The notes under the pieces were generated by a model, which made no database searches, was not told the origin of the DNA, and worked only from the letters and a program-made list of their open reading frames with translations. 64,000 nucleotides of DNA from Methylomarinovum caldicuralii (lineage in GTDB: Bacteria; Pseudomonadota; Gammaproteobacteria; Methylococcales; Methylothermaceae). The stretch is taken from positions 1,566,990 through 1,630,989 of the forward strand of contig NZ_AP024714.1 in NCBI RefSeq assembly GCF_033126985.1, given 5' to 3'. Positions 21,876 through 56,801 of this stretch are shown here, in pieces. Every line of letters begins with the position of its first letter. The first letter of the stretch is position 1. Made by a program: the position numbers and the translations under genes.

Positions 21876-21886
21876 GTACCCGTTCA

Positions 21887-23873
21887 TTGCGCCAGGCCAA
21901 GCCTGGAGAAGGAGGAAGTTATGTAGAAGGAAAGACATCGCTGAAACCTTCAGAGCGACCTGACAGGTGCAAGTCCTGTCCGGCCAAGGCTGGCCACCAG
22001 CCGGAACCGAGTGTTGCGTGGTCGAGGAGCGATCCCGACTGCGAAGCGTACACAGGGGGCCTGTAGGCCGCGTGATGGAGCCTCGAAAGTACGGAATGCG
22101 GAGCCGACGTTGTTGAACGGACGGAAGGCAACAGGGGTGGTGCTGTACTGGCCTGGCATCATCCCTCCGCCGGGGTCGAAGAGCGGGGCATGCAGGGCAA
22201 GGGTCGCCCAGGAACCTGGGAGGGCTCGATCACTCCTTGCGGGAAGAGCGGTGCGGGCGCCGTGTGAGAAAAGGCCCAGGCCCATCGGAGCGGTGTCCGG
22301 CCGATGGGAGCGAACGGGACACGAAGCAGGGTACCGGCGCGCGAAGGCGACGAAGCGCGCTGGGAAGGTGATCGAGCAATCGGAGCCTGCCGATAGTACC
22401 TGGGAAGTCGGGGAACCTGCCCCAAGGGACCCGATGGAGGGAAGCGGCAGGTCGGACGATGGGGCTTTCGGAGGGGCAGATGGCCGGGACATCGAGCCAG
22501 GAAAACATCTCAACACGACAACGGAAGCTAGTGGAACTGGCCCGGATCGAACCGAAGCTGGAACTGACCACGATTGCCCACCACATCGACGTGGTGTGGC
22601 TGGAAGAAGCCTGGCGGCGCACCCGCAAGGACGGGGCCGCCGGGGTGGACGGCGTGACTGCATCCCAATACGCAGCCGCCTTAGAGGAGAACCTGACGCG
22701 CCTGCTGGAACGGTTCAAGACCGGCCGGTATCGGGCGCCTGCGGTACGGCGCGTCCACCTGCCCAAGCCGGGAACGGGAAAGACCCGCCCGATCGGCATT
22801 CCCACGCTGGAAGACAAGGTGCTGCAACGGGCGGTGCTGATGGCGCTGGAACCCATCTTCGAGCAGGACTTTCTCGACTGCGCCTACGGGTTCCGGCCCG
22901 GACGCAGTGCCCACCAGGCCCTGGAGAGGCTATGGGGCGGGCTGATGGCCATGGGCGGTGGCTGGGTCATCGACCTGGACATCCAAAACTTCTTCGACGA
23001 CGTGGACCGGGACCGGCTGCGGAACTTTCTGGGGCAGAGGGTGCGCGACGGCGTGATCTGCCGCGTGATCGGTAAATGGCTGAATGCCGGCGTCATGGAG
23101 AGCGGACAGCTTCACTACCCCGAACAAGGGACACCGCAAGGTGGGGTGATCTCCCCGCTGCTGGCCAACCTCTACCTGCATCACGTGCTCGACCTGTGGT
23201 TCGAGCAGACGGTCAAACCGCGACTGCAAGGCAGCGCCTTCGAAGTCCGGTTCGCCGACGATGCGGTCCTGGTGTTCGAACGGGAAGAAGACGCCCGGCG
23301 GGTATTGGCCGTTCCGGGCAAGCGCCTGGCCAAATACGGCCTGCGCCTGCACCCGGACAAAACCCGCCTGCTCGACTTCAGAAAACCCGGACGGAAAGGC
23401 CAGAGCTTCCAATACCTGGGATTCACCCACTACTGGGGACGCTCAGGGAAAGGGCGTTGGGTCGTCAAACGCAAGACCGCCCAAGCCCGGCTCAGCCGCT
23501 CCCTGCAGGCGATCAACCACGGGTGCCGGATGCACCGCCACTGGCCGGTTGCAGACCAACAAGCGGCCCTGAGCCGCAAACTCAAGGGGCATTATGCCTA
23601 CTATGGGATCGTCGGCAACAGCCAATCGCTGGCCCGCTTCCTGTACGAGGTCAGACGGCGCTGGTACAAATGGTTGTCCCGCCGCAACCGGGAACGGATG
23701 AACCGGGACCATTTTGGGCGGCTGTACAAACGATACCCACTCCCCCCACCGCGCGTGGTTCACGGAATTTCCCGTTGCGTAGCGACGCCATAGTCCGAGG
23801 AGCCGGATGCCTTAATCGGGCACGTCCGGATCTGTGGGAACCGCGGGTGAGCAATCGCCCGCGGTCACCCGGC
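21887..23873 (+). ncRNA. Group II intron, copy 1 (about 1.99 kb, with internal reverse transcriptase)
   Basis: The 5' boundary is set by the restored IS repeat and starts TTGCGCCAGGCCAAGCCTGG, a variant of GTGCG followed by a stem. The predicted EBS1 TGAACGG at 22114-22120 is complementary over 7 bases to IBS1 CCGTTCA at 21880-21886, just upstream of the junction. Domain V is recognisable at about 23800-23833 (AGCCGGATGC, loop, GCACGTCCGGATCT). A domain VI stem follows with GAACCGCGGG and CCCGCGGTC arms. The last few bases of the 3' end are uncertain. About 570 bases of non-coding ribozyme precede the ORF. Confidence 0.85.
22459..23793 (+). CDS. ltrA: Group II intron reverse transcriptase/maturase, copy 1
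   Basis: 444 residues with the RT blocks of intron-encoded proteins: DGAAGVDGVT, the RPIGIPTLEDKVLQRA block, YGFRPGRSAHQAL, DIQNFFDDVD, QGTPQGGVISPLLANLYLH and the catalytic FADD (residues 265-268) in place of the commoner YADD. A maturase X domain follows (residues ~350-430, LKGHYAYYGIVGN...RRRWYKWLSRR). No HNH endonuclease domain is seen, so retargeting would rely on other priming. The start could be this ATG or one 7 codons later. Copy 2 is identical in protein. Confidence 0.92.
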   Translation: MGLSEGQMAGTSSQENISTRQRKLVELARIEPKLELTTIAHHIDVVWLEEAWRRTRKDGAAGVDGVTASQYAAALEENLTRLLERFKTGRYRAPAVRRVHLPKPGTGKTRPIGIPTLEDKVLQRAVLMALEPIFEQDFLDCAYGFRPGRSAHQALERLWGGLMAMGGGWVIDLDIQNFFDDVDRDRLRNFLGQRVRDGVICRVIGKWLNAGVMESGQLHYPEQGTPQGGVISPLLANLYLHHVLDLWFEQTVKPRLQGSAFEVRFADDAVLVFEREEDARRVLAVPGKRLAKYGLRLHPDKTRLLDFRKPGRKGQSFQYLGFTHYWGRSGKGRWVVKRKTAQARLSRSLQAINHGCRMHRHWPVADQQAALSRKLKGHYAYYGIVGNSQSLARFLYEVRRRWYKWLSRRNRERMNRDHFGRLYKRYPLPPPRVVHGISRCVATP

Positions 23874-23884
23874 CGGTCTTGCCA
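23874..23884 (+). repeat. Right-hand part of the interrupted IS66 left terminal repeat, copy 1
   Basis: CGGTCTTGCCA at 23874-23884 is the inner half of the terminal repeat whose outer half (GTACCCGTTCA) is at 21876-21886. Both halves together match the complement of the right end at 25362-25383 with two mismatches at positions 3 and 4. Confidence 0.85.
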
Positions 23885-23914
23885 AGTGCCTGAAGATTCA
23901 GGAGAATGCGGGCC

Positions 23915-25375
23915 ATGGAAAGACTTGATCTGGACCTGAGCCGCCCACCTCCCTTGCCCGGGACGGTGGAGGAATGCCACCGGGTGATCGAAGCGCTTTG
24001 GCGGGCGCTGGGAGAATTTCAGCAGATCCAGGCGCGAGTGGAAGAACTGGAGGAACAGTTGGCCTTGGGGTCCGACAATTCCTCCCAACCACCTTCCCAG
24101 GACAGCCCGAAGAAGCGCGCCGAGCGCAAGGGCAAGCGACCGACGGGACGCAAGAAAGGGGCGCAGGTGGGACATCCCAGGCACGAGCGGGCTCTGGTTC
24201 CGGCAGAAGCAGTGGACGAGGTCCGGCATTACTTTCCCCATGGCCGCTGTGAGTGCGGTGGGTCGGTGGCGGTGCGGGGATTCCGTCCCCATCAGGTGTT
24301 CGACCTGCCCGAGATTCGTTACCGGGTGGTCGAACACCGGGTGTATGAAGGCCGCTGTGGGTGTTGTGGTCAGAAGCACCAGGGGCGGCTACCGGATGAG
24401 GTGCCCCGCGGCCAGATGGGACCTGGGCTGGTGGCGTGGATTGGCTTGATGACGGGGCGCTATCACCTGTCGCTGCGGGAAGTCGAAGCGCTGCTGGAAG
24501 AACAATGGGGTCTGAGATTCAGCCTGGGGGCGATCAGCCAGAGCCAGATCCCGCTGCAGGCGTGGCTGGGTCCGGTCTACAACCAGATTGGCGAAGCGGT
24601 CAGAAAAGCGCTGATCGCCCATGCCGACGAGACCCGCCCCTACCGGGGCCGCAGCATCTATTGGCTGTGGGCGCTGACGACCGATCAGATGGCGTATTTC
24701 CTGACCCATTATTCCCGCGGCAAGGGTGCGGCCGGTGAGCTGTTGGGGGATTTCCAGGGAATCCTGGTGACCGACCGCCACGGGGCCTACAACGACCATC
24801 CCCAGGACTCACACCAATACTGCTGGGCGCATCTCATCCGCAACCTGGAACGGATCGCCGGGCGCAAGGGACAGGCCGGCGAAGATGGCGAACGCCTGCT
24901 CCGGGCCGCCCGCCTGACGGTTCACTGCGGCAAGCTCTGGCAACAGAGCCATTACCCATCCGACCGCTACCGAAGGCGATTGGAACGCCTCAAAGCCCTC
25001 TTCCGGCGCGAACTGGAACAGGCCGCCCAAAGACATGGCGACAACAAAACCGGTCGCAGCTGCCGCAAGTTGTTGGACGATTTTCCCAGGTTCTGGACCT
25101 TCCCGGACCATCCCGGGGTACCGATGACCAACAACACGGCAGAGCGTGCCCTACGCCCCTATGTCATCTGGCGCAAGACCAGTTTCTTCAGCCAGTCGCA
25201 TCGCGGTGACTGCTTCCGACCCATGATCCTGTCGCTGGTCGAAACCTGCAAGCGCCTCAAGATCGGCGTCTATCAGACCCTGCGGACCATCTGCGCCCAG
25301 GGCATGGCAGAGGGCGAGGTCACCTTCCGCCTGCCCCTGCCGGAACCTCAACCACTTCCAGTGGCAAGACCGTGA
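23915..25375 (+). CDS. IS66-family transposase (TnpC type), copy 1
   Basis: 486 residues with the family's layout: an N-terminal coiled region ([28 protein letters not shown]), a zinc-finger-like cysteine block (CECGGS... CGCCGQ), then the DDE core ([17 protein letters not shown], and [21 protein letters not shown] with the catalytic Glu) and a short C-terminal domain. The IS66 accessory genes TnpA/TnpB are absent, as in ISBst12-like members. ATG at 23915 is preferred over 23906, where the AGGAG is only 1 base away. The stop lies within the right terminal repeat. Confidence 0.93.
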   Translation: MERLDLDLSRPPPLPGTVEECHRVIEALWRALGEFQQIQARVEELEEQLALGSDNSSQPPSQDSPKKRAERKGKRPTGRKKGAQVGHPRHERALVPAEAVDEVRHYFPHGRCECGGSVAVRGFRPHQVFDLPEIRYRVVEHRVYEGRCGCCGQKHQGRLPDEVPRGQMGPGLVAWIGLMTGRYHLSLREVEALLEEQWGLRFSLGAISQSQIPLQAWLGPVYNQIGEAVRKALIAHADETRPYRGRSIYWLWALTTDQMAYFLTHYSRGKGAAGELLGDFQGILVTDRHGAYNDHPQDSHQYCWAHLIRNLERIAGRKGQAGEDGERLLRAARLTVHCGKLWQQSHYPSDRYRRRLERLKALFRRELEQAAQRHGDNKTGRSCRKLLDDFPRFWTFPDHPGVPMTNNTAERALRPYVIWRKTSFFSQSHRGDCFRPMILSLVETCKRLKIGVYQTLRTICAQGMAEGEVTFRLPLPEPQPLPVARP

Positions 25376-29875: not shown

Positions 29876-29886
29876 GTACCCGTTCA

Positions 29887-31873
29887 TTGCGCCAGGCCAA
29901 GCCTGGAGAAGGAGGAAGTTATGTAGAAGGAAAGACATCGCTGAAACCTTCAGAGCGACCTGACAGGTGCAAGTCCTGTCCGGCCAAGGCTGGCCACCAG
30001 CCGGAACCGAGTGTTGCGTGGTCGAGGAGCGATCCCGACTGCGAAGCGTACACAGGGGGCCTGTAGGCCGCGTGATGGAGCCTCGAAAGTACGGAATGCG
30101 GAGCCGACGTTGTTGAACGGACGGAAGGCAACAGGGGTGGTGCTGTACTGGCCTGGCATCATCCCTCCGCCGGGGTCGAAGAGCGGGGCATGCAGGGCAA
30201 GGGTCGCCCAGGAACCTGGGAGGGCTCGATCACTCCTTGCGGGAAGAGCGGTGCGGGCGCCGTGTGAGAAAAGGCCCAGGCCCATCGGAGCGGTGTCCGG
30301 CCGATGGGAGCGAACGGGACACGAAGCAGGGTACCGGCGCGCGAAGGCGACGAAGCGCGCTGGGAAGGTGATCGAGCAATCGGAGCCTGCCGATAGTACC
30401 TGGGAAGTCGGGGAACCTGCCCCAAGGGACCCGATGGAGGGAAGCGGCAGGTCGGACGATGGGGCTTTCGGAGGGGCAGATGGCCGGGACATCGAGCCAG
30501 GAAAACATCTCAACACGACAACGGAAGCTAGTGGAACTGGCCCGGATCGAACCGAAGCTGGAACTGACCACGATTGCCCACCACATCGACGTGGTGTGGC
30601 TGGAAGAAGCCTGGCGGCGCACCCGCAAGGACGGGGCCGCCGGGGTGGACGGCGTGACTGCATCCCAATACGCAGCCGCCTTAGAGGAGAACCTGACGCG
30701 CCTGCTGGAACGGTTCAAGACCGGCCGGTATCGGGCGCCTGCGGTACGGCGCGTCCACCTGCCCAAGCCGGGAACGGGAAAGACCCGCCCGATCGGCATT
30801 CCCACGCTGGAAGACAAGGTGCTGCAACGGGCGGTGCTGATGGCGCTGGAACCCATCTTCGAGCAGGACTTTCTCGACTGCGCCTACGGGTTCCGGCCCG
30901 GACGCAGTGCCCACCAGGCCCTGGAGAGGCTATGGGGCGGGCTGATGGCCATGGGCGGTGGCTGGGTCATCGACCTGGACATCCAAAACTTCTTCGACGA
31001 CGTGGACCGGGACCGGCTGCGGAACTTTCTGGGGCAGAGGGTGCGCGACGGCGTGATCTGCCGCGTGATCGGTAAATGGCTGAATGCCGGCGTCATGGAG
31101 AGCGGACAGCTTCACTACCCCGAACAAGGGACACCGCAAGGTGGGGTGATCTCCCCGCTGCTGGCCAACCTCTACCTGCATCACGTGCTCGACCTGTGGT
31201 TCGAGCAGACGGTCAAACCGCGACTGCAAGGCAGCGCCTTCGAAGTCCGGTTCGCCGACGATGCGGTCCTGGTGTTCGAACGGGAAGAAGACGCCCGGCG
31301 GGTATTGGCCGTTCCGGGCAAGCGCCTGGCCAAATACGGCCTGCGCCTGCACCCGGACAAAACCCGCCTGCTCGACTTCAGAAAACCCGGACGGAAAGGC
31401 CAGAGCTTCCAATACCTGGGATTCACCCACTACTGGGGACGCTCAGGGAAAGGGCGTTGGGTCGTCAAACGCAAGACCGCCCAAGCCCGGCTCAGCCGCT
31501 CCCTGCAGGCGATCAACCACGGGTGCCGGATGCACCGCCACTGGCCGGTTGCAGACCAACAAGCGGCCCTGAGCCGCAAACTCAAGGGGCATTATGCCTA
31601 CTATGGGATCGTCGGCAACAGCCAATCGCTGGCCCGCTTCCTGTACGAGGTCAGACGGCGCTGGTACAAATGGTTGTCCCGCCGCAACCGGGAACGGATG
31701 AACCGGGACCATTTTGGGCGGCTGTACAAACGATACCCACTCCCCCCACCGCGCGTGGTTCACGGAATTTCCCGTTGCGTAGCGACGCCATAGTCCGAGG
31801 AGCCGGATGCCTTAATCGGGCACGTCCGGATCTGTGGGAACCGCGGGTGAGCAATCGCCCGCGGTCACCCGGC
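29887..31873 (+). ncRNA. Group II intron, copy 2
   Basis: Identical to the intron at 21887-23873 as far as I compared. EBS1 TGAACGG at 30114-30120 pairs with CCGTTCA at 29880-29886; domain V lies at about 31800-31833. Confidence 0.85.
30459..31793 (+). CDS. ltrA: Group II intron reverse transcriptase/maturase, copy 2
   Basis: Identical in protein sequence to the copy at 22459-23793: RT blocks, FADD catalytic motif, maturase X domain, no endonuclease domain. The absence of any coding difference suggests very recent duplication. Confidence 0.92.
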   Translation: MGLSEGQMAGTSSQENISTRQRKLVELARIEPKLELTTIAHHIDVVWLEEAWRRTRKDGAAGVDGVTASQYAAALEENLTRLLERFKTGRYRAPAVRRVHLPKPGTGKTRPIGIPTLEDKVLQRAVLMALEPIFEQDFLDCAYGFRPGRSAHQALERLWGGLMAMGGGWVIDLDIQNFFDDVDRDRLRNFLGQRVRDGVICRVIGKWLNAGVMESGQLHYPEQGTPQGGVISPLLANLYLHHVLDLWFEQTVKPRLQGSAFEVRFADDAVLVFEREEDARRVLAVPGKRLAKYGLRLHPDKTRLLDFRKPGRKGQSFQYLGFTHYWGRSGKGRWVVKRKTAQARLSRSLQAINHGCRMHRHWPVADQQAALSRKLKGHYAYYGIVGNSQSLARFLYEVRRRWYKWLSRRNRERMNRDHFGRLYKRYPLPPPRVVHGISRCVATP

Positions 31874-31914
31874 CGGTCTTGCCAAGTGCCTGAAGATTCA
31901 GGAGAATGCGGGCC

Positions 31915-33375
31915 ATGGAAAGACTTGATCTGGACCTGAGCCGCCCACCTCCCTTGCCCGGGACGGTGGAGGAATGCCACCGGGTGATCGAAGCGCTTTG
32001 GCGGGCGCTGGGAGAATTTCAGCAGATCCAGGCGCGAGTGGAAGAACTGGAGGAACAGTTGGCCTTGGGGTCCGACAATTCCTCCCAACCACCTTCCCAG
32101 GACAGCCCGAAGAAGCGCGCCGAGCGCAAGGGCAAGCGACCGACGGGACGCAAGAAAGGGGCGCAGGTGGGACATCCCAGGCACGAGCGGGCTCTGGTTC
32201 CGGCAGAAGCAGTGGACGAGGTCCGGCATTACTTTCCCCATGGCCGCTGTGAGTGCGGTGGGTCGGTGGCGGTGCGGGGATTCCGTCCCCATCAGGTGTT
32301 CGACCTGCCCGAGATTCGTTACCGGGTGGTCGAACACCGGGTGTATGAAGGCCGCTGTGGGTGTTGTGGTCAGAAGCACCAGGGGCGGCTACCGGATGAG
32401 GTGCCCCGCGGCCAGATGGGACCTGGGCTGGTGGCGTGGATTGGCTTGATGACGGGGCGCTATCACCTGTCGCTGCGGGAAGTCGAAGCGCTGCTGGAAG
32501 AACAATGGGGTCTGAGATTCAGCCTGGGGGCGATCAGCCAGAGCCAGATCCCGCTGCAGGCGTGGCTGGGTCCGGTCTACAACCAGATTGGCGAAGCGGT
32601 CAGAAAAGCGCTGATCGCCCATGCCGACGAGACCCGCCCCTACCGGGGCCGCAGCATCTATTGGCTGTGGGCGCTGACGACCGATCAGATGGCGTATTTC
32701 CTGACCCATTATTCCCGCGGCAAGGGTGCGGCCGGTGAGCTGTTGGGGGATTTCCAGGGAATCCTGGTGACCGACCGCCACGGGGCCTACAACGACCATC
32801 CCCAGGACTCACACCAATACTGCTGGGCGCATCTCATCCGCAACCTGGAACGGATCGCCGGGCGCAAGGGACAGGCCGGCGAAGATGGCGAACGCCTGCT
32901 CCGGGCCGCCCGCCTGACGGTTCACTGCGGCAAGCTCTGGCAACAGAGCCATTACCCATCCGACCGCTACCGAAGGCGATTGGAACGCCTCAAAGCCCTC
33001 TTCCGGCGCGAACTGGAACAGGCCGCCCAAAGACATGGCGACAACAAAACCGGTCGCAGCTGCCGCAAGTTGTTGGACGATTTTCCCAGGTTCTGGACCT
33101 TCCCGGACCATCCCGGGGTACCGATGACCAACAACACGGCAGAGCGTGCCCTACGCCCCTATGTCATCTGGCGCAAGACCAGTTTCTTCAGCCAGTCGCA
33201 TCGCGGTGACTGCTTCCGACCCATGATCCTGTCGCTGGTCGAAACCTGCAAGCGCCTCAAGATCGGCGTCTATCAGACCCTGCGGACCATCTGCGCCCAG
33301 GGCATGGCAGAGGGCGAGGTCACCTTCCGCCTGCCCCTGCCGGAACCTCAACCACTTCCAGTGGCAAGCCCGTGA
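31915..33375 (+). CDS. IS66-family transposase (TnpC type), copy 2
   Basis: Identical to copy 1 except one residue near the C terminus (VASP here, VARP in copy 1), caused by the A/C difference at base 33369, which also lies in the right terminal repeat. DDE motifs and zinc-finger region as in copy 1. Confidence 0.93.
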
Positions 33376-54963: not shown

Positions 54964-56091
54964 ATGGGAAATCTGCAACTGCTGTGGCAAAGTACCGGCC
55001 TGGCTAACTTCAGCGGCGGCCAGGCGCTGATGATCGGCGTCGGCCTGCTGCTGCTGTATCTGGCCATCCGCAAGGGCTTCGAACCGCTGCTGCTGGTGCC
55101 CATCGGTTTCGGCGCCATCCTCAGCAACATTCCGGTCGCCGGCATCTCCGACGAAGGCGGCATCCTCCATTACCTCTATTACGGCATCAAGACCGGCGTC
55201 TTCCCGCTGTTGATCTTCATGGGCGTGGGAGCGCTGACCGACTTCGGGCCCATGCTCGCCAATCCCCGCACCCTGTTTCTGGGGGCGGCGGCCCAGTTCG
55301 GTATCTTCGGCACCCTGCTCGGCGCCATCGCCCTCAACTGGATACCGGGGCTGGAATTCAGCCTCCGGGATGCGGCGGCCATCGCCATCATCGGCGGCGC
55401 CGACGGCCCCACCTCGATCTACGTGGCCTCGCGCCTGGCGCCGGAGCTGCTCGGCGCCATCGCCGTGGCCTCCTATTCCTATATGGCCCTGGTGCCGCTG
55501 ATCCAGCCGCCGATCATGCGCGCCCTGACCTCCGAGCGGGAACGCCGCATCGAAATGCTGCAGCTGCGCCCCGTCAGCCGGCGGGAGAAGATCGTGTTTC
55601 CCCTCATGCTCATCGTCCTCACCGCCCTGCTGCTGCCTTCCGCAGCGCCCCTGATCGGCATGTTCGCCTTCGGCAATCTGATGCGCGAGAGCGGCGTGGT
55701 GGAGCGGCTGGCCAGGACCGCCCAGAACGAACTGATCAACATCGTCACCATCTTCCTGGGACTGTCGGTGGGTTCCAAGCTCAAGGCCGACAGCTTTCTC
55801 ACCTTGGAAACCCTGGGGATTCTGCTCCTGGGGGCCATCGCCTTCGCCATGGGCACCGCCTCAGGCGTGCTTATGGCCAAGCTGATGAACCGGATCGGCA
55901 GGGTTCCCATCAATCCCCTCATCGGCGCCGCCGGGGTATCGGCGGTGCCCATGGCGGCCCGGGTCGCCAACAAGGTGGGGCTGGAAAGCAATCCCCACAA
56001 CTTCCTGCTGATGCACGCCATGGGGCCGAACGTGGCCGGGGTGATCGGCTCGGCGGTGGCGGCCGGGGTCCTACTGTCGCTGGTGCCATGA
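54964..56091 (+). CDS. oadB: Oxaloacetate decarboxylase beta subunit, Na+ pump
   Basis: 375 residues with about nine helices, [67 protein letters not shown] and the Asn/Ser-rich end [26 protein letters not shown], all typical of OadB. It decarboxylates carboxybiotin and expels Na+. The stop overlaps the start of the CrcB-like gene (ATGA). Confidence 0.95.
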
Positions 56092-56801
56092 CCGCCCTGC
56101 AGGCCGTTGCCATCATGATGGGCGGGGCGGCCGGCGCCCTGCTGCGGTTTCTGGCGTCCTCGGGAATCTATCAGTGGCTGGGACGGGATTTCCCCTACGG
56201 CACCCTGGCGGTCAACGTCATCGGTTCCTTCCTGATCGGCCTGCTCAGCGAAGGGCTGCTGGCCGAGCCGGTGGGGCGGCTGGCCGTCCTCTACCGTCCC
56301 GCCCTGCTGGTGGGCTTTCTCGGCGCCTTCACCACCTTTTCCACCTTCTCCCTGGAAACCCTCAATCTGATCGCACAGGGGCAGTTCTGGCGCGCCCTGG
56401 CCAATGTGTTCGCCAGCGTACTGCTGTGCTTGAGCGCTGTCGCCCTGGGCGTGGTGCTGGGCCGCAGCCTGTTGCTGTTGCCCGCCCATCTGGCACCGGG
56501 CCACTGGCTGCCCTATGGACAGTTGCTGCTCAACATCATCGGCGCCTTTTTGATCGGCTTCGTGTTTCACCTGGCCAGCGCCCACAGCCAGCTCAGCATG
56601 GAGGGACGCGCCCTGGTGCTGATCTCATTGCTGGGCGTCTTCGTGCTGGCCTCGGGACTGTATCTGGTGTTCCACCTGCTGGAACGGGGCCATGACCTGA
56701 ACCATTCATGGAATCTGCCCCTGGCGGTTTTTCTGTTCAATACCCTGCTCTGCATCCTGGCTGCCTGGCTGGGACTCATCATAGGGAGGGCTTCCACATG
56801 A
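56088..56801 (+). CDS. crcB: Tandem-fused CrcB/Fluc-type fluoride channel
   Basis: 237 residues, about twice a CrcB. The first half (1-125) is canonical: [19 protein letters not shown] (pore Asn) and [16 protein letters not shown] (the phenylalanine and Na+-site signature), with four helices. The second half begins [19 protein letters not shown], matching helix 2, then [23 protein letters not shown] at helix 3 (signature lost) and a last helix. It has no equivalent of helix 1, leaving seven helices. With one helix missing, the second half is predicted to be inverted relative to the first, copying the antiparallel Fluc dimer. Overlaps oadB and DUF190. Confidence 0.82.

Follow-up and report, generated by a model that had tools for sequence, protein, structure and literature searches.

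How does a single chain, made of one complete Fluc subunit and three helices of a second, provide a path for fluoride? The question is raised by a crcB gene in the window (the whole 64,000-nucleotide stretch of Methylomarinovum caldicuralii DNA analysed here), and it reaches beyond that gene. Fluc is one of the leading examples of how dual-topology dimers may give way to inverted-repeat proteins (Stockbridge et al.). Here a bacterial order appears to have dealt with the same parity problem through loss of a helix, a conserved natural experiment in the origin of inverted repeats. Every stage survives in living members: a single gene; a fusion with the FEX-like residue pattern, Phe82' being kept; a fusion without Phe82'; a fusion whose second half has eroded; a second half of one helix; and a single gene once more. 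What becomes of an inverted copy after fusion can thus be tested within one family by a simple growth assay.

Pore positions are numbered as in Fluc-Bpe, in a register taken from the alignment; a prime denotes the carboxyl-terminal half (C-half).

The gene and its family

Two genes of the locus matter here:

56088..56801, + strand: fused crcB, an open reading frame of 237 codons with an ATG start, above the cut-offs of PF02537 and TIGR00494
56798..57103, + strand: DUF190 (COG1993) gene, 64 bits against PF02641 (cut-off 23.4), overlapping the crcB stop by four bases

The crcB frame likewise overlaps, by four bases, the stop of its upstream neighbour oadB (54964-56091, PF03977). The whole protein scores 115.1 bits against Pfam CRCB (PF02537; cut-off 32.9), in two stretches, and 113 bits against TIGR00494 (cut-off 80.45). 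When the two halves are scored separately in the genome, the amino-terminal half (N-half) clears the cut-off at 97.6 bits, whereas the C-half stays under it at 25.1 bits (E 3.9e-5). A profile built from 87 single CrcBs recognises the C-half more clearly, with 48 bits (i-E 6.5e-15, 116 C-half stretches being searched). At i-E <= 1e-3 this profile matches all 77 C-halves of the window's subfamily (I) and 23 of 38 in the other (II). The subfamily labels come from the quick N-half tree described below, thinned rows being assigned to their nearest relative; 77 proteins including the window's are in I, 38 in II, and one is basal.

The window protein thus belongs firmly to the CrcB/Fluc family by virtue of its N-half, which has all of the pore residues T39, N43, F82, S83, F85, E88 and R22. 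The C-half retains just N43' and S83' among these; profile homology identifies it as a genuine second copy of CrcB, one in which helix 1 is incomplete. These scores bear out the fused CrcB proposed by the sequence-only reading, and the motif pairs by which that reading aligned the halves do lie at constant offsets, 106 and 104 residues. (A DUF805 match, E 0.04, fell under the cut-off, and CrcB homology was preferred.)

The host genome consists of a single 2.69-Mb contig (99.58% complete), and CrcB matches in it are confined to the two halves of 56088-56801, the sole CrcB locus found. The nearest named relative of the protein is from a Methylothermaceae metagenome-assembled genome (71% identity over the best segment). 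A search of the host genome found no fluoride riboswitch. Its one CLC gene, looked at as a possible second fluoride exporter, reads RSGVP, which would be the usual serine filter rather than that of CLC-F. The genome's one CLC protein (L143, 1255-2598) reads GLGGP, presumably standing where the gating glutamate motif would be expected. A DUF190 relative lies beside crcB, single or fused, in 26 of the 80 loci L033-L112, whose titles name several phyla; DUF190 is a possible partner of fluoride export.

Elsewhere in the window, an identical block of 3493 bases occurs twice, exactly 8000 bases apart (21876-25368 and 29876-33368). Each copy contains a group II intron match (RF02005), one of 35 such matches genome-wide, most with equal score; the host genome has apparently undergone a large intron expansion.

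Seven helices

An AlphaFold2 model was built from 47 aligned rows, an alignment that is shallow for the C-half. With mean pLDDT 88.8 and pTM 0.66, it shows seven membrane helices (4+3), residues 65-96 forming one broken helix. (A single-sequence structure model, mean pLDDT 57, was discarded.) The features, all on the + strand, are as follows:

56088..56477, + strand: N-half, residues 1-130, a complete Fluc protomer; the model aligns with Fluc-Bpe 5nkq_C at Z 16.4 and 1.8 Å over 125 residues
56094..56180, + strand: helix 1 (3-31) in the model, with conserved Arg20 (Arg22 of Fluc-Bpe), arginine in 115 of 116 proteins and a gap in one
56196..56255, + strand: helix 2 (37-56) in the model, with Thr39 and Asn43, both invariant (116/116)
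56280..56375, + strand: broken helix 3 (65-81, 89-96) in the model, break at 82-88, with Phe84, Phe87 and Glu90 (Phe82, Phe85 and Glu88 of Fluc-Bpe)
56385..56489, + strand: long helix 4 (100-134), continuous with the end of helix 1', by the model, the single-CrcB profile and the junction spacing of relatives
56514..56585, + strand: helix 2' (143-166) in the model, with Asn149 (Asn43') and Gln145 replacing Thr39'
56598..56684, + strand: unbroken helix 3' (171-199), by the model and residue counts, with Ala188 (82'), Ser189 (Ser83'), Leu191 (85') and Tyr192
56712..56795, + strand: helix 4' (209-236) in the model, with Asn218 (position 108'; 76/77 in subfamily I) and Trp227 (68/77)

The break typical of Fluc helix 3 is present in the modelled N-half (82-88) and absent from helix 3' (171-199). 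Structure modelling thus returned the 4+3 arrangement first read from the sequence, with seven and not eight membrane helices. Since an odd number of helices follows the first four, the C-half should lie upside down; inversion by loss of a helix rather than gain, as the earlier reading had it, follows from the helix count.

The loss of helix 1' that it also claimed holds in that the C-half has three helices. It was not a clean loss: at the junction, 34 of the 77 subfamily I proteins retain loop 1 and the last part of helix 1. The evidence is a spacing, G-x3-W-x-G-x3-P-Y, which occurred in none of 200 shuffles; it was chosen after inspection by eye, a first junction expression having matched 6/77, and the window protein itself is without it. 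The same spacing marks the N-half in 67 of the 77 and the end of helix 1 in 15 of 87 single CrcBs. Moreover, in the alignment with the single-CrcB profile, helix 1 falls on the second half of helix 4. Together, profile and spacing suggest that helix 1' was not cleanly excised but that helix 4 runs straight into its end; and because the spacing of the N-half recurs at the junction, the C-half probably arose by duplication of the gene itself.

Structure comparison with FEX reached the first domain. Foldseek superposed the whole-chain model on a FEX structure at an rmsd of 19.8 Å over 320 columns. VIA aligned only residues 1-131 with FEX 9op1_C (Z 8.6, 4.6 Å, 127 residues), the model's alignment being shallow for the C-half. 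For the C-half region VIA also gave unrelated helical proteins; with Z no higher than 8.4, these lay in the range of common bundles and were set aside.

Pore residues in the two halves

The residue rules are published. Each Fluc pore takes Phe85 from the subunit that supplies Asn43, and Phe82 from its partner (PMC4969038, PMC5417652). In Ec2, where these phenylalanines are F83 and F80, F80M is the only tested change that is tolerated; F80A, F80L, F80I and F83L are inactive (PMC5636608). At T39, serine alone was tolerated among five tested changes (PMC8315801). Concatemers with both pores hit are inactive, and Ec2 channels conduct at about 5 pS with one pore and 10 pS with two (PMC4969038).

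Among the 116 fused proteins, the N-half could hardly be more constant: T39, N43, G77, T80, T81, F82, S83 and F85 are each present in all 116, R22 and N104 in 115 (R22 with one gap), and position 88 is Glu in 104 and Asp in 12. The C-half tells a different story. T39' survives in one protein, N43' in 77, F82' in 12 and F85' in five (98 have Leu); G77' is kept in 103, and S83' in 96, with Thr in another 11. The two subfamilies diverge here. Subfamily I (n=77) keeps N43' in 77, Asn at 108' in 76, L85' in 75, S83' in 74, G77' in 73 and Tyr at 86' in 73. Subfamily II (n=38) has no N43', and its position 82' is Ala in 14, Gly in 11 and Ser in six.

Over the 104 fused rows of the tree, position 82' changes 25 times (eight times if scored as Phe or not), second only to 39' (31 changes) among the eight C-half positions counted; T39, N43, F82, S83 and F85 of the N-half change not once. 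Members that keep F82' are scattered across the tree, which suggests, as far as so poorly resolved a tree can, that the original fusion still possessed a complete N-pore like that of FEX.

Conservation along the C-half of subfamily I correlates with that of single CrcBs (rho 0.34, p 1.6e-3; 0.02 in subfamily II). Registers slid by -4 and -1 score about the same (0.33 and 0.35); the test is weak and was not relied upon.

The sequence-only reading inferred one functional pore within the chain, and for this protein the residue counts do not support it. The N-pore of the window protein lacks Phe82' (Ala188), as do all but 12 of the 116; its C-pore lacks Thr39', Phe85' (Leu191) and Glu88', and helix 1' is not whole there. 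Both pores inside the chain are thus incomplete, in the window protein as in 104 of the 116, and by published mutagenesis neither should conduct. This is an extrapolation, because the nearest laboratory likeness, a domain with both phenylalanines changed, proved biochemically intractable for Last et al. (PMC4969038). Other coordination schemes than the two-phenylalanine one may exist: PMC5636608 points to a Mycobacterium tuberculosis pair as replacing a phenylalanine.

Distribution, descent and loss

The search for homologues of the same length, on which the earlier reading had staked its claim, returned 116 distinct fused CrcBs of 213-240 residues. Exactly 235 residues is the length of 68, and the 213-residue row is cut by the end of the fetched stretch. 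They derive from 127 open frames of 200-262 residues; four frames were excluded for masked letters (L038, L046, L185, L191), as were four shorter pieces (L189, L151, L249, L175).

A CrcB match was present in 286 of 311 genomes of the window's order, and CrcB was read in part of these, hence no total of genomes with a fusion is given. The fused form is found in most of the methane-eating bacteria examined in the order (Methylococcales, by named relatives). All fused proteins come from this order or, by name, from Methylococcales or unspecified gammaproteobacteria: among the best 80 of 181 relatives, 14 are fused, and their titles name Methylococcales members or, in two cases, 'Gammaproteobacteria bacterium'. 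In two families of the order, f4 (17/17 with a match) and f187 (2/2), CrcB is single, at 123-124 residues. Across 369 genomes of the class, the C-half profile matched 194 at 1e-10 and gave two matches only in the window's own genome, a test blind to eroded C-halves such as that of G136. Eight open frames of at least 200 residues from outside the order, among the matches listed, were all ordinary CrcBs of 124-126 residues; a further fused case beyond the order did not emerge from the 369 genomes.

The N-half tree is a quick one: 169 rows, 130 columns, midpoint root, 81 of 165 inner branches open, and 104 fused rows after thinning at 93%. It places 103 of the 104 in one 127-row branch (support 84), together with 19 singles of the order, three loss cases and two other singles. 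One fused row (L186 of family f184, a long row) falls outside, among other gammaproteobacterial singles; one outside single (L028, also long) falls inside. The fused label changes six times on the tree, of which the starred branches force only one, against 51.9 in shuffles. The fusion thus probably arose once, early in the history of the order.

G406, a one-contig genome, encodes a CrcB of 133 residues without a C-half, followed by a frame that reads like DUF190 by eye. In G549, a draft of 60 contigs, CrcB ends after helix 4 (118 residues as trimmed); no C-half was recognised in the three downstream frames, although a profile match ran to position 145 across a stop. G391 (L257; three contigs) has a 4+1 CrcB of 160 residues, with one helix replacing three and a serS-like frame following (both by eye); the helix number after the N-half stays odd. 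All three lie within subfamily II and have one CrcB match per genome. Subfamily II thus has an eroded C-half, with two losses and one reduction, and in these three cases the N-half evidently works on its own.

Other arrangements of crcB were seen along the way. Three genomes of the window's genus (G661, G665 and G663, at L181, L184 and L269) carry two nearby fused paralogues on opposite strands; at L181 and L184, one of the two keeps Phe82'. In Luteimonas sp. 9C (L085, 4989-5797) two crcB genes overlap in tandem, the first with Val replacing Phe82.

Selection and charge

Substitution rates indicate purifying selection on the C-half among close relatives: over the 84 of 172 close pairs that passed the dS filter, the median dN of each half over gene-wide dS is 0.083 for the N-half and 0.100 for the C-half. 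The deeper pair nearest the window protein, that protein and L033, has dN of 0.114 and 0.447 (dS 0.86 and 1.36) for N-half and C-half, respectively; in the window protein's own lineage the C-half changes faster than the N-half.

The balance of lysine and arginine (R22 excluded) over the seven-helix chain averages -0.55 (SD 1.72), and 107 of 116 proteins lie within two of zero; the window protein has four against four, a balance of 0. The N-half alone stands at +1.07, much as do the 87 singles (+1.06), and the C-half at -1.62. Because the charges balance over the chain, nothing shows that fusion fixed one orientation. This fits two-way insertion, for which such balance is necessary, and, equally, an internally antiparallel chain.

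Where fluoride may pass

These observations suggest a general model. The crcB gene was duplicated and fused, probably once, early in the order. The first half is a complete conventional Fluc subunit. The second, by the helix count, is an inverted partial copy (helices 2-4), probably attached in such a way that helix 4 doubles as the last part of helix 1'. Residue conservation makes it most likely that fluoride passes through pores built by the N-halves of two oppositely inserted chains, as in an ordinary Fluc. The C-half may have started as a FEX-like partner; in the window's subfamily it probably still packs like a Fluc subunit, yet by the published residue rules it could not complete a pore. 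Its conserved positions suggest that it packs in the manner of Fluc against something, most simply its own N-half, which is adjacent at high effective concentration.

Conventional pores between the N-halves of two chains, each with its C-half as a tethered inverted partner, are slightly favoured, and the choice is tentative. They are favoured because Phe82 of the N-half is invariant, the N-half is complete, the internal pores are incomplete, the C-half has been lost, and the charges are balanced. That the model matches FEX over the N-domain only adds weak support. For the window itself it counts against them that all three losses lie in subfamily II.

The chain may instead form an intramolecular antiparallel pseudo-dimer, in which the N-pore of one chain conducts and the two-phenylalanine rule is relaxed to Leu, Ala or Val at 82'. 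This is the main rival and only somewhat less likely. The odd number of helices would give the necessary inversion; the two halves lie close together in one chain, with a compatible charge balance; and 12 scattered members, by keeping Phe82', retain a complete N-pore of the FEX type. Subfamily I also conserves, under purifying selection among close relatives, C-half positions that belong to the Fluc pore and sodium site, which a mere appendage would not need. Position 82' speaks against it. This is the second most changeable of the positions counted, whereas Phe82 of the N-half, which only the dead pore would need, never changes; and in Ec2 the alanine and leucine substitutions are inactive (PMC5636608). 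Nor is the model FEX-like beyond the N-domain, and helix 3' is unbroken. The specific claim that a single chain, folded as an antiparallel pseudo-dimer, lets fluoride through a pore which has only one coordinating phenylalanine, with Leu, Ala or Val instead of the other, is unlikely. If true, nature would have a Fluc that departs from the two-phenylalanine rule, and bacteria an inverted-repeat channel reached via helix loss and not gain.

Less probable still, the C-half would be an accessory or regulatory domain: for example, an inverted decoy by which the N-half of a non-conducting monomer stays capped until it meets a second chain, or else a partner of DUF190. Such a role would accommodate positions that look like an interface and are conserved while both pores are one phenylalanine short, as well as the purifying selection and the DUF190 genes adjoining crcB in 26 of 80 loci. 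However, DUF190 also adjoins single CrcBs, so that the DUF190 version leaves the fusion unexplained. An assembly or annotation artefact, or a decaying gene, is refuted: frameshifts, stops or contig ends do interrupt some draft copies, but the window's gene is a single open frame in a one-contig genome, the frame is open in 116 distinct sequences, and dN over dS is low in both halves.

Comparison with known systems

A bacterial fused CrcB of 4+3 helices appears to be new, within a CrcB/Fluc family that is itself known; no account of one was found in the open-licence literature, among the matches listed. The N-half resembles Fluc-Bpe (5nkq) and Fluc-Ec2 (5a43) in sequence, fold, known pore residues and broken helix 3. 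However, known bacterial Flucs are single four-helix chains, working as homodimers or gene pairs, and the window protein adds an inverted three-helix copy.

FEX proteins (yeast Fex1p; Candida albicans 9op1) share part of the plan: two Fluc domains per chain, one with lost pore residues, and inversion by an odd number of added helices. The live FEX pore takes F85 from the domain giving T39 and N43, and F82 from the other; the dead pore has lost its phenylalanines and keeps the Asn43 equivalent (PMC5417652). FEX was a good lead for the sequence-only reading, but the window protein is firmly not a FEX, because it lacks both the linker helix and the FEX pore pattern, with Ala188 at 82' and Leu191 at 85'. 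FEX has nine helices (4+1+4), a linker and one complete pore; the window protein has seven (4+3), no linker helix and, as in 104 of 116 of its kind, no complete intramolecular pore. Unlike in FEX, the complete domain comes first, and the N-half Phe82, which would line only the dead pore, is invariant, whereas the dead-pore phenylalanines of FEX are lost.

Engineered concatemers likewise place two antiparallel Fluc domains in one chain, as in Laf-TM (PMC3755343) and Ec2 WT/WT (PMC4969038). Unlike the window protein, they use two whole domains and a foreign glycophorin helix as inversion linker.

The two-domain DUF606 proteins (Lolkema 2008, as recounted in PMC3962082) belong to another family but reached antiparallel halves likewise by duplication, divergence and fusion, a route for which, by that account, an odd number of spans is required. 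In the window protein the odd number comes from dropping a helix from an even-numbered unit.
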